From Candidatus Stoquefichus massiliensis AP9 (GTDB lineage: Bacteria > Bacillota_I > Bacilli_A > Erysipelotrichales > Coprobacillaceae): a stretch of DNA of 43,523 nt. Under the pieces are notes generated by a model that was given only the letters and a program-made list of their open reading frames with translations, did no database searches and was not told the origin of the DNA. The position numbers were made by a program, and so were the translations under genes. Shown one piece after another: positions 18,987-43,523 of this stretch; the stretch's first letter is position 1, and every line of letters begins with the position of its first letter. Location of the stretch: NCBI RefSeq assembly GCF_000455285.1, contig NZ_HG005297.1:19249-62771 (forward strand). The letters are read 5' to 3'.

Positions 18987-19475
18987 TTATTTATATTTTT
19001 CTATCATTTCATCGTTAGCACGCATTGCTTGTGCTTCCATGTCTTTTCGATAAGTCAATAATTTTTGTTTGATTGAATCATGTTTGATAGCCATGATTTG
19101 TAATGCTAAGTATGCTGCATTCTTACTTCCATTTATCGCAACTGTTGCGACAGGAATACCAGAAGGCATCTGAACGATTGATAATAATGCATCCATACCA
19201 TCTAATGTTGCTCCACTCATAGGTACTCCAATAACGGGTAAAACAGTTTGCGATGCAACAACACCAGGTAACGCTGCTGCCATTCCAGCAGCTGTAATAA
19301 TCACTTCTGTTCCATCTGTTTCTGTCTCTTGAATAAAGGCACTGAGTCCCTCATGTGCACGATGTGCTGACAAACATCTGACACTCACTTCTACACCATA
19401 CTCTTTTAAAATCCCAATAGCTGGTTCAACTTTTGATAAATCACTTGTTGAACCCATAATAATTGCAACTTTCAT
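18987..19475 (-). CDS. purE: N5-CAIR mutase / AIR carboxylase catalytic subunit
   Basis: A 162-residue PurE protein for step six. It starts [18 protein letters not shown], with the conserved SAHRAHEGL loop, the glycine-rich [16 protein letters not shown] and the GVPMSG block. Whether it works on N5-CAIR (class I, needs PurK) or takes CO2 with AIR directly (class II) cannot be settled by eye; no purK is found in the window. It is the first of the purine genes proper, about 50 bases after fhs, with a hairpin in that gap. Confidence 0.95.
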
Positions 19476-34880: not shown

Positions 34881-34956
34881 TGGTGGAGCTTAGCGGGATC
34901 GAACCGCTGACCTCCTGCGTGCAAAGCAGGCGCTCTCCCATCTGAGCTAAAGCCCC
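34881..34956 (-). tRNA. tRNA-Ala (anticodon TGC)
   Basis: Folds as a 76-base tRNA. The acceptor is GGGGCTT/AAGCTCC (one G-U), the D arm TAGCTCAGATGGGAGAGC, the anticodon stem CCTGC/GCAGG around loop TTTGCAC, and the T arm is GCGGTTCGATCCCGC. CCA is encoded. It is the last gene of the cluster. Confidence 0.97.
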
Positions 34957-34974
34957 AATTCTATAAAATTAATA

Positions 34975-35051
<77 letters not shown>

Positions 35052-35069
35052 ATATTAAACAGAAATTAA

Positions 35070-35146
<77 letters not shown>

Positions 35147-38218: not shown

Positions 38219-39640
38219 TTAACCTACAATATCCTTTAATACCTGATAAGTTTCCTGATACCATTCATCAAAATAATCCTGACTATCATAAAGAGACCAT
38301 AATGAATCTATATTTTTTCCTTCATTAATTGCTTGAACAACAGTTTTACGATCATTTGTTGCTTTATTTTTTAAACATTCTTCTAATTCTGTTCTTAATT
38401 TTGCTCCATTATCGAAAGCTTTTGTTGTATAAAGATTTTTAGTATTAACAGTATTCACTGATGTTTCAATAACTTCTTTCATTAAATCAGATTGAATAGT
38501 CGTAGATGATTCTATAGTTGAAAAATCATTAGCTTTCTTCATGACTGGTAAATAACCAGAATCTATTGAAAATGCAATATTTTGTTTCTGCTCTGTAAAC
38601 CATTTTAAAAACTCAACAGACCCTTCTATATGTGCATCATCACTCTTTGTAACAATCATTCCTGCTCCTTGTTGAACCGCATATTTTTGACCATCTTTAA
38701 AAAGAGGTGCTTCTAAAACTTTAACATCTATAGGATAAGCCTTTTCATCATCAACTATGACTTGATTTGGAAAAAATGTTGCACCTGATGAAGAACCTAT
38801 AAAACTGAGAATATTACCTAATTTAACATCATCACTTCTAAAACGACCTTCTGATAAAAAATAGCCATGAACATAAGGTGTATAATAATTATCCCATAAT
38901 TTCTTCACTGTTTCTTTATCAAAATCCAAAGTTGCTTTACCATCACTAGATACAGTTACAATATCATGTCCTAATTGTTTTAATCCAATAACAATATAAT
39001 TTGCCATAGCATCTCTACCAAAAAATGCTTTTCCATCATTTGCTTTTGGCGTCAATTGATCAGTATATTCATAATATTTTTTAGATACTGCAGTTATACC
39101 TTCGATTGTTGACAAATCTTCTAACTGGACACCTGTTGCTTTTGCAAACTTATTAAAATCGGTCATATTAATCATCATAATTTCTACAGATTTAGCGGTT
39201 GGAAAAATCTTAAGTTCCTCATTAAACATGCCTTCTTCAATATATCCATTAATATATTGAGAAAGTTCCTTATCACTAAAATAAGGCTTTAAATCTTGAA
39301 CAAGACCCAAAGAGTCAACAAGATAAGCAGTATCTGCATAAGCTGCAAAAATATTTGGAACTTCTTTTGCTCCTACTTTTTTATTAGCAGCATCTAACAC
39401 ACTATTACCTAATTCATTCACATTGCCAAAACCAGTAACCTCAACAATAATTCCTTTTTCTTTTCCAACACTTCGATTAAAATTCTCTACTAATGTATTA
39501 AATGATTCTAATTGTTTTCCTGTGTAATAATTCCATAATTTAATAGTCACAGGATTATCTGCATCTAAATGGCTTTTTGAAGAACATCCCATACATATTA
39601 ATAAAGCAGAACAGCATAGCACCTTTAATAATTTCTTCAT
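38219..39640 (-). CDS. Extracellular solute-binding lipoprotein (ABC family 1 type)
   Basis: A 473-residue substrate-binding protein anchored by a lipid: signal KKLLKVLCCSALLICMGCSS with Cys19 in the lipobox. The fold marks are NPVTIKLWNYYTGKQ at the N-terminus, VPNIFAAYADTAY, and the late SVEFLKWFTEQKQNIAFSI, as in carbohydrate-binding proteins of cluster B/family 1. No permease or ATPase gene is nearby; its only partner is the Cache/GGDEF/EAL gene four bases downstream. It probably serves signalling rather than uptake; ligand unknown (sugar likely). A good promoter precedes it. Confidence 0.9.
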   Translation of the reverse strand: MKKLLKVLCCSALLICMGCSSKSHLDADNPVTIKLWNYYTGKQLESFNTLVENFNRSVGKEKGIIVEVTGFGNVNELGNSVLDAANKKVGAKEVPNIFAAYADTAYLVDSLGLVQDLKPYFSDKELSQYINGYIEEGMFNEELKIFPTAKSVEIMMINMTDFNKFAKATGVQLEDLSTIEGITAVSKKYYEYTDQLTPKANDGKAFFGRDAMANYIVIGLKQLGHDIVTVSSDGKATLDFDKETVKKLWDNYYTPYVHGYFLSEGRFRSDDVKLGNILSFIGSSSGATFFPNQVIVDDEKAYPIDVKVLEAPLFKDGQKYAVQQGAGMIVTKSDDAHIEGSVEFLKWFTEQKQNIAFSIDSGYLPVMKKANDFSTIESSTTIQSDLMKEVIETSVNTVNTKNLYTTKAFDNGAKLRTELEECLKNKATNDRKTVVQAINEGKNIDSLWSLYDSQDYFDEWYQETYQVLKDIVG

Positions 39641-39706: not shown

Positions 39707-40256
39707 CTATACCCCAGAGGTCAAGGAATTATAATATTGTTCTATTCCATCACTAATGGCAACAGCTAATTTTTGATGATATTTAGCACTTTTTAACTGT
39801 CCTCTTTCATTTGCATTTGATAAAAAGCCACATTCTATTAAGACTCCCAAAGATTGCGTTGCTCTTAAAACATAAAAACCACAAGATGAGATATTTTTAC
39901 GTGTTCCTGTAATAGGTTTCATACTATCATGAATATTCTTAGCTAATCTTTCACCTTCCTGACTATTTTTATAGTAAAAGACTTGCGATCCCCATGCTCC
40001 TGATGAAGAAGAATTCAAATGAATACTCAAAAACAAATCTGGATTATATTCATCAATCTTTAAAACTCTTAAATACATATCATCCTGTTTAGAATAATTA
40101 TAATCACGTTTTGTCATATCCTGATCATCAGTACGTGTCAAATAAATTGTTGCACCTCTTGCTTCTAACTCTTCCTTTAATGCAAAACAAATCTTTAAAT
40201 TCAATTCATCTTCATTCACTTTTCCCACATTTGCTCCATTGTCTAAACCACCATGT
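39707..40256 (-). pseudogene. N-acetylmuramoyl-L-alanine amidase (Amidase_3), 5' end lost
   Basis: The remaining ~180 codons encode most of a zinc-dependent peptidoglycan amidase: HGGLDNGANVGKVNEDELN, TIYLTRTDD, LFLSIHLNSS (zinc His) and the catalytic GVLIECGFLSN. The open frame can start only at a GTG (40228), but the same frame reads back to THGGLDNG near 40256. The family has DPGHGG there, preceded by signal peptide and strands. Upstream the homology stops and a TAA is reached at 40265-40267. The gene thus lacks its secretion signal and the first part of the fold. The break coincides with the 3' side of a large serine recombinase gene, so integration of that element is the likely cause. 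Confidence 0.82.
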
Positions 40257-40259
40257 GTA
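40250..40259. repeat. Candidate attachment-site repeat, left copy
   Basis: ACCATGTGTA falls exactly on the junction between the truncated amidase and the recombinase element and recurs at 42777-42786 in the same orientation. A shared core at an integration junction is what a serine recombinase leaves, but ten bases is short evidence. Confidence 0.35.
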
Positions 40260-40301
40260 GGGTGTTAATTGCGTAAATTTTGATATCTTTTTAAAACAAT
40301 G

Positions 40302-41921
40302 TTATTCATCTGAAATAGCATTGTAAACTGAGGTAAATAGATGTTCTAACTCATCAGAAAAGTTATAAATAATCTTAATTTTCTTATCTTCATAGATAGA
40401 AATCTGATAAATCATTTCAACAACAATATCTCTATCTAATGATTCAATATCTTTTAGTTCTAATAATCTTTTTATCCAAGGTGATTCAAAAACATGACTT
40501 GTTATTCCTTCATCCTTTTCTTTTTCTAATACTTCTAATTGCTTTAAATAAAGTTCCTCTTTTTTTGTATAATCTTCACGATATGAAAGAAATTCTTCTT
40601 TAGAAATTAAACCTTCTTTATAATCTTCATATACTGATTTTTTTAATTTTTTTATGCGTTCTACATCTTGTTCTATTTTATGAATTTCAGTCTTTGCTAC
40701 TTGTTTAGATTTTTCAATATTCAGATTTTGCGATTGTACAAGTGATTTGAGATCATCAACACTGCCAACAATCTTTTTTAAATCATCTAATACAATATTC
40801 TCTAATATCTTTAATGGTATCCTATGGGGTGTACAGTACTGTTTTCCATTGCGTCGATATGTTCCACAATAAAAATCATACACTCTCGTTTCATCTCTAT
40901 TTTTATAAATCATTTTCGTCATTGATCTACCACAATCTCCACATTTTAGAAAGCCAGCAAATATATTCTTATTAGTTTCTAAATCCAACTTTCGTGTACG
41001 TCTTTTCAAGAGCATCTGTACTTTGTTCCATGTTTCCATATCAATAATTGGATCATGTGTATTTTCAACAATAATCCACTGATCTTTAGGAACTTTCTTC
41101 TGTTTCCCACGCATTCGCTGATATCTTGTTCCTTGTACCATATTTCCTATATAAATCTCTTTATTTAAAATCGAATTAATTGTTGTATAAGACCAATATG
41201 TGGTACTTTCTAATCTTCTAGGATTATTATAGTTTAATCCATTAATCTTTTTATATTCTGACGGACAAAGAATACCTTCACCATTTAAAACCATAGCAAT
41301 TCGTTGTTTCCCATAACCTTGAATATACATAGCAAATATGCGTCTAACAACATTGGCGGCATATTCATCTATAATTAATTTATTTTTATCTGTAGGAGAC
41401 TTCTTATATCCATAACTTGTAAAAGAACCAATAAACTCTCCAGCCTTTTGTTTTGTTTTTACTGCTGTTTGTACTTTTTTTGAAATATCCCTAGCATACT
41501 GTTCGTTAAAGATATTTTTTATAGGTAATAACATATCATAGACTTGTTTAAGACTATCTATTCCATCTGTGATAGAAATAAATCTAACTCCCAAATCTGG
41601 AAACACTCTTTCTAAATAGCGCCCTGTTTCAATATAATCTCGACCAAATCTTGATAAATCTTTTACAATAACACAATTGACCTTGCCAGATTCTATATCT
41701 TCAATCATTCTTTGAAAACTAGGTCTCCTAAAGTTAGTACCACTAAAACCATCGTCTATATAAGTATCATATAAAATCAAATCCTCTTTTTTAGCAACAT
41801 ACTCTGCTAACAATCTTCTTTGATTTCCAACACTATCACTTTCTTCTTTATCACCATCTTCCTTTGATAATCTAATATAAACTGCTGTTTGAAATAAGTT
41901 TAAAATATTTAATGTATTCAT
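40302..41921 (-). CDS. Large serine recombinase (TnpX/TndX-like)
   Basis: A 539-residue site-specific recombinase. The N-terminal resolvase domain (~12-150) has the catalytic serine in AVYIRLSKEDGD (Ser19) and VIVKDLSRFGRDYIETG. The recombinase domain (~165-290) includes GYGKQRIAMVLNGEGI and NKEIYIGNMVQG. A zinc ribbon follows (KCGDCGRSMTK, then YCGTYRRNGKQYC), then a long coiled coil (~390-480) and a C-terminal DUF4368-like tail. It breaks and rejoins DNA at att sites through a serine-DNA link. The gene end lies some 45 bases from the junction with the amidase gene, the usual position next to an attachment site. The ribosome binding site (GGTG) is weak. Confidence 0.93.
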   Translation of the reverse strand: MNTLNILNLFQTAVYIRLSKEDGDKEESDSVGNQRRLLAEYVAKKEDLILYDTYIDDGFSGTNFRRPSFQRMIEDIESGKVNCVIVKDLSRFGRDYIETGRYLERVFPDLGVRFISITDGIDSLKQVYDMLLPIKNIFNEQYARDISKKVQTAVKTKQKAGEFIGSFTSYGYKKSPTDKNKLIIDEYAANVVRRIFAMYIQGYGKQRIAMVLNGEGILCPSEYKKINGLNYNNPRRLESTTYWSYTTINSILNKEIYIGNMVQGTRYQRMRGKQKKVPKDQWIIVENTHDPIIDMETWNKVQMLLKRRTRKLDLETNKNIFAGFLKCGDCGRSMTKMIYKNRDETRVYDFYCGTYRRNGKQYCTPHRIPLKILENIVLDDLKKIVGSVDDLKSLVQSQNLNIEKSKQVAKTEIHKIEQDVERIKKLKKSVYEDYKEGLISKEEFLSYREDYTKKEELYLKQLEVLEKEKDEGITSHVFESPWIKRLLELKDIESLDRDIVVEMIYQISIYEDKKIKIIYNFSDELEHLFTSVYNAISDE

Positions 41922-41999
41922 ATTTACACCATTTCAATTGCTATATCTACGGCAATTATACTTGATTTTTTTAATATCATCCAATGTACAATCATACAA

Positions 42000-42134
42000 T
42001 TAATCACCTTTCTTTGATGTTTCGATATTTATATGAGACTTGATGATACGAATCAATAATTCCTCAATAGATAGTTTTGATAAAAATTCTCTTTCTACTA
42101 TATATTGTGTATTTTCTTTCTTTTGCATTTTCAT
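42000..42134 (-). CDS. Small TnpW-like transposon protein (44 residues)
   Basis: Begins MKMQKKENTQYIVEREFLSK and ends HINIETSKKGD. GAGGAGG five bases before the ATG is a very strong ribosome binding site. The 'YIVERxF ... ELLIRIIKSHI' layout resembles the short TnpW/SHOCT-like proteins encoded just before TnpX-type recombinases; this is recognition by pattern and position, not by a clear motif. Function is unknown. It lies between the MazF-like gene and the recombinase gene on the same strand. Confidence 0.65.
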   Translation of the reverse strand: MKMQKKENTQYIVEREFLSKLSIEELLIRIIKSHINIETSKKGD

Positions 42135-42191
42135 CAACCTCCTCATATAATACCTATTCATCTAAAAATCAATTATGTATGATCACATTTA

Positions 42192-42542
42192 TTAAACATA
42201 TAAACCTATACTTATTAACAATGCTTTATTGAGATATTGCATTTCTTCATGATTAATACACCCTACTTTCCTTATCAATTTAGATTTATCAATAACTCTT
42301 ATTTGTTCCATCATGACTATGGATTTGCATGTAATACCACTTTGTTTAGATAGTATGATATGTGTTGGTAAAGATGACTTAGATAATTTTGTAGTAATCG
42401 GAGTTACGATTGTTGTTGGACTAAAATGATTACCTACATTGTTTTGAATAATTATAACTGGTCTAATCCCACCTTGTTCGCTACCTATAGCCATACCAAG
42501 ATTAGCTAAATAAATATCACCTCTTAATATCTTTTCATGCAT
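42192..42542 (-). CDS. MazF/PemK-family endoribonuclease toxin-like protein
   Basis: A 116-residue protein with the MazF/PemK fold signature: ILRGDIYLANLGMAIGSEQGGIRPVIIIQNN, then SPTTIVTPITTK, THIILSKQSGI and SIVMMEQIRVIDKSKL. Members cut mRNA at short sequences. The key Arg in GGIRPV and the Ser/Thr of the VTPIT strand are kept. MazF toxins are usually encoded after a MazE-type antitoxin; none is upstream here, only a 420-base non-coding stretch, and the next gene downstream (44 residues) does not look like MazE. AAGGAGGAG gives a strong ribosome binding site. In clostridial elements such lone PemK-like proteins may have other roles. Confidence 0.9.
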   Translation of the reverse strand: MHEKILRGDIYLANLGMAIGSEQGGIRPVIIIQNNVGNHFSPTTIVTPITTKLSKSSLPTHIILSKQSGITCKSIVMMEQIRVIDKSKLIRKVGCINHEEMQYLNKALLISIGLYV

Positions 42543-42566
42543 ACATACTCCTCCTTATCTATGTAA

Positions 42567-42627
42567 ATAGAAAATATCCTTTTTGTTTGATTTATTTAAC
42601 AAATAATTAAATAAGGATATTTTCTAT
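42567..42627 (-). repeat. Bulged 21-bp dyad before the MazF-like gene
   Basis: ATAGAAAATATCC (42615-42627 read on the minus strand) pairs perfectly over 13 bp with GGATATTTTCTAT (42567-42579). Inside it TTATTTAA pairs with TTAAATAA (8 bp, seven-base loop); one 12-base bulge lies on one side. There is no T-run after it. An alternative small hairpin GATAT-AGAAA-ATATC uses the same 5' arm, so two exclusive folds are possible. The ribosome binding site of the toxin gene is only about ten bases further. Confidence 0.75.
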
Positions 42628-42776
42628 ATCTTTATAAATGACATCCTATAGTATTTATAGACTGTTCTGCCAAAACAGTTCCACGAGACAATATAAATTA
42701 TATACTGCTATCTCTTAGGGCTTTCACCTAAATGATATCTATACTTGCGACGTTGCTAACGCTCGAATTAAGACTT

Positions 42777-42786
42777 ACCATGTGTA
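42777..42786. repeat. Candidate attachment-site repeat, right copy
   Basis: Second exact copy of ACCATGTGTA, in direct orientation, inside the structured leader. Excision between the copies would release about 2.5 kb with the recombinase, TnpW-like and MazF-like genes, but the sequence beyond it does not restore the amidase gene, so this may be coincidence. Confidence 0.25.
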
Positions 42787-42912
42787 TCATTATATTTGAT
42801 ATTATCATCGCCATAGTAACAGCAAATTACTTTTTAATTAGATATTTCTCGCTCTTATGAAATGAACTTCATCGTCTTGGCGTATCTATTAACAGGCCAC
42901 AATATCATTAAC

Positions 42913-42940
42913 GTTATAAATACTACTATTCAATTGTCAA
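42913..42940 (-). promoter_or_regulatory. Promoter of the structured leader / MazF-like gene
   Basis: A consensus TTGACA (42935-42940) and TATAAC (42913-42918), 16 bases apart on the minus strand, 25 bases after the sigma-factor stop codon. It predicts a transcript start near 42906. Confidence 0.6.
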
Positions 42941-42964
42941 AGAACCTTTGGGATTTTTTCTCCC

Positions 42965-43420
42965 TCACTTATTAGCCGACGAAAACATGCCTTTGGTAAC
43001 AATTTTTTTTATTTTTTTTCTTACACGATAAACTCTTTGCTTTACAGATGATAAACTTAGATTCATTGACATACTGATTTCCTTATATGAATACCCTAGA
43101 ATCTTCATATAAATAATCTTTAATGTTATATCATCTAATGACTTCATTACCTTTAGTAATTGTTCATTATCTAAATAATCAATAATATCATCAATATTAT
43201 TAATTGGTAATTTATCCATTGTTTGAGCAGTATACTTCATAAAATCACAATTCGTATAATGCTTTTCTAAAAACTTACGTTCCTGATTAAATGATTTCCA
43301 ATCATATTCATGTAATTCATCTATAACCTTTTCATCTACACCTAACTGATGTAATAGATTTTCTTCCTTTGTTTTCCATAAAAGCCATAATTTTTCTTCT
43401 CTTGCCTTATTATAGATCAT
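42965..43420 (-). CDS. Sigma-70-like factor (region 4) of an integrative element
   Basis: A 151-residue protein. The C-terminal third is a sigma region-4-type helix-turn-helix: LKIIYMKILGYSYKEISMSMNLSLSSVKQRVYRVRKKIKK. The N-terminal part (WLLWKTKEENLLHQLGVDEKVIDELHEYDW, then RKFLEKHYTN) resembles small sigma-like regulators of Tn916/Tn1549-type conjugative elements rather than a housekeeping sigma factor; there is no clear region 2. It may turn on element genes. GAAGGAGG lies before the ATG. The remaining 100 bases to the window edge hold no gene that I can support, only a TATAAT-like box near 43480 on the minus strand. Confidence 0.85.
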   Translation of the reverse strand: MIYNKAREEKLWLLWKTKEENLLHQLGVDEKVIDELHEYDWKSFNQERKFLEKHYTNCDFMKYTAQTMDKLPINNIDDIIDYLDNEQLLKVMKSLDDITLKIIYMKILGYSYKEISMSMNLSLSSVKQRVYRVRKKIKKIVTKGMFSSANK

Positions 43421-43523
43421 CTTTGTCTACCTCCTTCTTTTTGTTAAATAGAAGAAAGGTGGTGATCTACAATGTAATACGATTATAAAATAGGCATCCC
43501 TATCATTCAGTAAGACTATGAAA

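Follow-up and report, generated by a model that had tools for sequence, protein, structure and literature searches.

In Candidatus Stoquefichus massiliensis AP9, a cwlD-like amidase gene has been split, with a probability of about 0.93, by a conjugative-type element that integrated site-specifically through its large serine recombinase. The window, i.e., the whole stretch of 43,523 nucleotides analysed here, covers positions 19249–62771 of contig C14 of this 24-contig genome (G000), and the insertion of an element into the amidase gene is as certain as sequence allows. In the proposed mechanism, the recombinase would exchange its attP, CGCAATT-N11-CA-N11-AATTGCG, with an attB centred on the CA of a His codon. 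After integration, one side would keep the start, the signal peptide and DPG, and the other the stretch from HGG to the stop; the enzyme would be off while the element is in place because the 3′ part has no start codon, and excision at the same CA dinucleotide would restore the exact reading frame.

The preliminary description had noted that amidase homology starts abruptly at THGGLDNG and had proposed that a serine-recombinase element is integrated in the gene at its zinc-site motif. The abrupt start was confirmed. On the minus strand the frame at the junction reads LRN*HPTHGGLDNGANVGK, in which the Amidase_3 frame opens at HPTHGGLDNG immediately after the stop codon, and the fragment matches PF01520 with 136 bits from profile position 5. 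The proposed integration found support as well, with the cut falling on the zinc-ligand His codon (40253–40255, minus strand). From this codon the 3′ part of the gene runs to its stop (39707–40255, minus strand); an open reading frame of the gene-caller kind (39707–40228) has its start codon, a GTG, past the motif in the downstream direction, and the true homology reaches 40255. For the window amidase, the possibility that the element provides a new 5′ end was considered and rejected, as a TAA stands just upstream of HGG; in several relatives the upstream frame is open for up to 62 codons, and no signal peptide was seen there by eye. The crossover dinucleotide CA corresponds to bases 1–2 of the His codon (40254–40255, minus strand) and is common to attL and attR, the window attL and the attR on contig C11 having CATGG in common at the crossover. 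The left attP arm, CGCAATT, lies at 40267–40273 (minus strand) and has its mirror, AATTGCG, in the attR on C11. Elsewhere in the window, one tRNA-Ala(tgc) and two tRNA-Ile(gat) genes stand in tandem at 34881–35146.

G001, the only further genome of the genus, has the same gene whole, reading KKVIVLDPGHGGMDNGANVGK. Counted from its listed start the product is 226 aa long; its N-terminus resembles a signal peptide, and it contains LDPGHGGMDNGANVGK. Downstream of it follow a solute-binding lipoprotein gene, which in the window is the host flank at 38219–39640 (minus strand), and then a GGDEF/EAL protein (a name read from the sequence), in the same order. The best NCBIfam model is TIGR02883 (CwlD), with 182.6 bits for the G001 protein and 164 for the window fragment, neither of which reaches the cut-off of 221.55; the two other Amidase_3 proteins of G000 score 110.2 and 69.7 bits with it. 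A fair conclusion is that the split gene is CwlD-like, the most so of the three Amidase_3 genes in G000, CwlD proper being not proven; a CwlD-like enzyme would probably make it a sporulation gene.

Uninterrupted copies in related genomes, a comparison suggested in the preliminary description, do exist: an orthologue was found at E 1e-30 or better in 32 of the 43 family genomes, and 24 of these cross the junction without a stop. The gene is split at HGG in five family genomes (G000, G037, G039, G040 and G041) and carries a +1 frameshift at HGG in three (G022, G024 and G025). Among the four other split genomes, 5′ halves ending in DPGHGG were found in G037, G040 and G041, and no convincing one in G039. 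The recombinase of G037 belongs to the same group (66.6% identical), and the junction there equals that of locus L045 (Thomasclavelia saccharogumia), which could mean that both are the same organism. No recombinase was present within the short stretch seen in G039 and G041. In G040 (contig C24, L151), the same cwlD His codon is occupied by another serine recombinase, with 28.9% identity, and the 5′ and 3′ amidase halves are about 12 kb apart on one contig; since this recombinase differs, at least two recombinase lineages chose the codon.

The three frameshifted genes (G024, G022 and G025; loci L142, L143 and L140) come from three species of one genus and have an extra base after the His codon, CAT-C-GGA-GGG, which puts HGG out of frame. 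Between G022 and G024, dS is 0.85, dN 0.021 and omega 0.025, as if the gene were still working; a programmed +1 frameshift or a scar left by an excised element would explain the extra base. In G025 the His is replaced by Asn and a stop comes early. For the split gene itself, the window 3′ part compared with G001 gives dN 0.06, dS 0.98 and omega 0.061, the three neighbours having 0.17, 0.15 and 0.084. It shows no sign of decay, which fits a recent insertion and a regularly restored gene equally.

The preliminary description had expected the missing amidase 5′ part at the far end of the element, and a start codon, a signal-peptide region and DPGHGG were found there, on C11. When the N-terminal 52 residues of the G001 amidase were searched against G000, the 5′ half was located at C11:61375–61521 (88% identity over query residues 1–49, E 1.9e-25); the DNA match extends over C11:61381–61573 with 91% identity over 193 bases, and no second copy was found in G000 in the search with the 5′ end. 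The C11 frame reads ...KKVIVLDPGHGG and then departs from amidase. The window end can be written CGCAATT-AACACCCTACA-CA-TGGTGG and the C11 end CA-TGGCGGATATG-AATTGCG; combined, they give the dyad CGCAATT-N11-CA-N11-AATTGCG with the CA of the His codon as its centre. The ends thus have the anatomy of large serine recombinase elements, a short core common to attL and attR with the arms of an attP dyad. Chance is excluded for a cut at HGG because the 5′ half is in the same genome and fragments starting at HGG recur in the relatives (53 of 80, see below). Synonymous divergence from G001 is 0.18 in the 5′ half and 0.55 in the 3′ half; the intact pair G002/G003 is skewed in the same direction (0.29 and 0.69), and as the skew recurs in intact pairs, contamination is not needed as the source of the 5′ half.

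The two contigs that hold the element are separated by a stretch that is unsequenced or masked, and continuity of the element is assumed. The part inside the window (40256–43523) continues to the end of C14, about 5.6 kb in all, and presumably, after the gap, over C11:1 to about 61380. C11 looks element-like as far as base 61380, and the size is at least about 67 kb if the C11 and C14 pieces are one element and all of C11:1–61380 belongs to it. The large serine recombinase, of 539 aa (40302–41921, minus strand), has the Resolvase, Recombinase and zinc-ribbon domains (Pfam) of its class and is presumed to be the integrase of the element. Just upstream of it a 44-aa protein is encoded (42000–42134, minus strand), for which no Pfam family was found and which is a candidate recombination directionality factor that may direct excision. 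In a single motif search, 60 of 81 loci showed an ORF like it ahead of the recombinase, with the motif YxIEREFL...RII..H, and 21 loci were missed. Next come a MazF/PemK-like toxin gene (42192–42542, minus strand; PF02452, 103.7 bits) and a sigma-70 region-4-like protein (42965–43420, minus strand; PF08281, 37.5 bits), both inside the element. On C14 past the window (L004:5765–7759), masked bases are followed by another resolvase-like N-terminus and another sigma-factor-like protein, both within the element and both named by eye.

On C11 there is a relaxase (PF03432, 132.6 bits), as in an integrative and conjugative element (ICE), adjoined by a NikA-like/MobC protein. Other cargo of this contig includes ParB, a lantibiotic dehydratase, a lysozyme/CHAP protein, a SpaA/thioester surface protein, a very large SNF2-like protein and two reverse transcriptases, one of which has an HNH domain and a group II intron maturase domain. 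A TrbL_4 match is below the cut-off. An ORF first read as VirB4 was not borne out, a Pfam match being absent over the 432 residues tested, and the 617-aa ORF at C11:30427, first read as VirD4, is a reverse transcriptase. The neighbours of the lantibiotic dehydratase gene (C11:10346–12790) resemble a peptide cluster.

Relatives of the recombinase were sought in 84,980 species genomes, and the best 80 of 197 confirmed loci were kept. A split target gene is present at the recombinase-side end in 72 of these best 80, comprising 31 CwlD-like, 23 CwlC-like and 18 PdaB-like targets; assignment failed for three (L050, L053 and L109). A forward-strand amidase fragment starting from the same HGG is found in 53 of the best 80, within 200 nt of the recombinase stop in 35 of them, within 800 nt in 47 and at 1.4–4.1 kb in 6, and 51 of the 53 carry an arm CG[CT]A[AT] in the 27 nt that precede the His codon. 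In L075 the amidase fragment is present in reverse orientation. The 54 amidase loci were sorted by similarity to six reference fragments, with the CwlD-like assignment of L041 weak (77 against 65 bits). The CwlC-like label is based on SPOR-type matches (FtsN 16 and MPL36 17 of 54 members), on several loci whose 5′ parts have no signal peptide, and in part on the nature of B. subtilis CwlC. In the 18 PdaB-like loci, the 5′ or the 3′ part of the deacetylase gene faces the recombinase, and in five loci beyond the 72 (L060, L071, L083, L092 and L093) a piece of one of the target gene kinds lies elsewhere in the locus. TIGR02764 is the best model for the two PdaB-like fragments tested, at 206.6 and 194.5 bits, below its cut-off of 237.4.

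As a control, 18 more distant recombinases from viral contigs (23–50% identity) were inspected, and none is followed by such an amidase or deacetylase fragment; among them L111 has no sequence after the recombinase, and L115 has an opposite-strand amidase 3.4 kb away. On the recombinase tree, built by a quick method and with some long branches, the target changes at least 23 times among the three classes, and a Blautia MAG, a Lachnospiraceae genome and Thomasclavelia (L043–L045) have recombinases that are nearly identical. From these two observations, the recombinase group is mobile, and what it recognises is a DNA motif, not one particular gene. Two elements each, one with a CwlC-like and one with a CwlD-like target, were seen in genomes C77 and B57_57_RB_H (L046 with L070; L047 with L048). 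About 90–130 nt past the recombinase stop of L060 stands a complete palindrome with both arms, CCGCAAGTTACCGC...GCGGTAACTTGCGG, which looks like an unused attP.

Both ends are in view in 15 amidase loci. In every one of them the run common to attL and attR includes the CA of the His codon, and in four (L062, L081, L082 and L088) it is CA alone. When the flanks are joined, each of the 15 yields an open frame, 169–312 aa long; that of L068 is shortened, as its fragment ends after 87 codons, 37 bases from the contig end. In L062 a membrane-anchored CwlD-type 5′ half is paired with a CwlC-type 3′ half, probably a chimera of assembly or of recombination. L061 and L062, on two contigs of MAG MO.6_4, have identical recombinases, and the twin elements may have recombined, or the pairing may be an assembly artefact. 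For the deacetylase targets, 20 loci have a PdaB-like piece; 10 of them were taken in, and the 3′ piece was found in seven; with the anchor used it was not found in L056, L059 and L094. The common run in these seven includes TGGG at the Trp codon of FDAAW, the TG being CA on the opposite strand. Five of the seven joins are long frames (298–350 aa), L077 giving 218 aa and L093 128 aa; the 3′ part of L077 is itself in two pieces. Element sizes are 2.6–9.5 kb in the amidase loci and 3.4–7.1 kb in the PdaB-like loci, biased to small values since at most 10 kb of flank was fetched per side. As in gene-intervening elements, a probable sporulation gene is split in frame here, the gene being CwlD-like, its role taken from B. 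subtilis, and the frame being restored in the joined related loci. The targeting of the same codon, or of a matching site in a second spore enzyme gene, in many gut spore-formers suggests a reversible gene switch.

As to what the insertion means for the host, the account that survives best, at slightly better than even odds, is that of an ordinary mobile element with its attB in a conserved gene. The target would be silent in growth and cost little until sporulation, excision would serve transfer only, and carriers would form defective spores or none. The relaxase and NikA/MobC protein agree with this account, as do the class changes on the tree, the occurrence of the target motif in unrelated genes and surveys describing serine recombinases aimed at one conserved gene site (PMC10083194). 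It accommodates less easily that the best 80 relatives hit three spore-wall gene kinds though 10 of the hosts hold 3–8 Amidase_3 matches each (49 in total), a pattern which survivor bias could also give.

Programmed excision coupled to sporulation, as in skin, is possible, with the odds somewhat against it. The recombinase and its small partner would be switched on in the mother cell, the element would leave, and cwlD, cwlC or pdaB would be restored in the doomed cell, the spore retaining the element. All three target kinds correspond to sporulation genes by their roles in B. subtilis, where the cortex requires the sigma-E-controlled cwlD, lysis of the mother cell is the work of cwlC, and SpoIIID binds ybaN (pdaB) (PMC517825). 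SpoIVA is present in G000, G001 and 19 of the 20 hosts tested; the L041 host (Erysipelotrichaceae bacterium OPF54), whose target amidase scores 73 bits as CwlD, has no match. Precedents are known in sigK (skin), spsM, gerE, spoVFB, spoVR and yabG, sporulation genes split by elements. Many of the related elements are small, whereas the window's is large and has transfer genes. Selection on the split gene is not relaxed in the comparison with G001 (omega 0.061 against 0.084–0.17), which recent insertion explains equally well, and the near-identical recombinases of the Blautia MAG, Lachnospiraceae and Thomasclavelia look like ordinary horizontal spread.

The promoter evidence bears on the same question of timing. 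A conserved block stands upstream of the small ORF in two groups of loci, and KMATATT-N15-CATA-like boxes are found in a recurring block ahead of the recombinase operon; in this genus, spoIVA carries a CATATATT box. The sigma-E-type consensus with N15 spacing, which was used for the scan, fits the block in many loci. The match is weak: p is at most 0.05 in 15 of 59 loci, which are non-independent, with a median of 0.158. The candidate in the window, TTATATG-N15-CATACATA (42174–42203, minus strand), has a shuffle p of 0.119, non-significant by itself. Timing of the excision by sporulation is conjectural. A chromosomal rearrangement or misassembly instead of an insertion, which would agree with amidase halves on different contigs and with genes upstream of the 5′ half that differ from those in G001, is very improbable in view of the matching att arms, the exact core, the integrase adjoining attL and the 15 related amidase loci in which this anatomy is seen on a single contig.

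The broadest reading, that this group of serine-recombinase elements, ranging in size from about 2.6 kb to conjugative elements, may be a sporulation-timed DNA switch over gut Firmicutes, with catalytic codons of the spore-wall genes (CwlD, CwlC-like, PdaB) as attB and excision in the doomed mother cell, is tentative and rather doubtful. Were it true, cortex maturation, mother-cell lysis and spore release would depend on the element, and the spore line would keep it. With excision timed by sporulation, spore maturation in many gut commensals would be under the control of a group of mobile elements, and the rearrangement of genes during development would be much more frequent outside Bacillus than one would judge from the few cases described. 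Without such timing, these strains have a defective cortex or lysis gene, which would affect spore formation and host-to-host passage, and annotations of cwlD or pdaB as absent or as pseudogenes would be of the wrong kind. In both cases the recombinases form a set with a single defined CA core and with natural attB variants in the dozens.

Among the open-licence papers listed in the literature searches, none is about an intervening element in cwlD, cwlC or pdaB. We liken the window's putative intervening element to skin, gin and SPbeta/spsM. The skin element in sigK of B. subtilis and C. difficile likewise has a large serine recombinase and splits a sporulation gene in frame; sigK is restored on its excision, and that of C. 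difficile has a small directionality factor (PMC5025042). In contrast to skin, the target genes here are others, no phage genes were recognised among the proteins scanned, and excision is predicted. The gin element in gerE of B. cereus is likewise a non-phage element with a serine recombinase in a sporulation gene; it has an excision factor, GirX, a size of 28.6 kb, three recombinases, one target gene and a 9-bp common core (PMC5595907), whereas here one recombinase group, three kinds of target gene and a CA core are found. The yin element in yabG of C. botulinum, also an intervening element in a sporulation gene, is a prophage with its recombinase beside the 5′ end and, according to its authors, unique to one strain (PMC10747680); the recombinase here is beside the 3′ part and has many relatives. 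SPbeta, whose excision reconstitutes spsM (PMC4191935), is similarly a mobile element in a spore-envelope gene, but a phage, unlike the conjugative-type element described here. Finally, Durrant et al. (PMC10083194) surveyed site-specific large serine recombinases, which resemble the present group in that diverse recombinases are aimed at one conserved codon stretch; the example given there is a prolyl isomerase, and the word amidase is absent from the main text.
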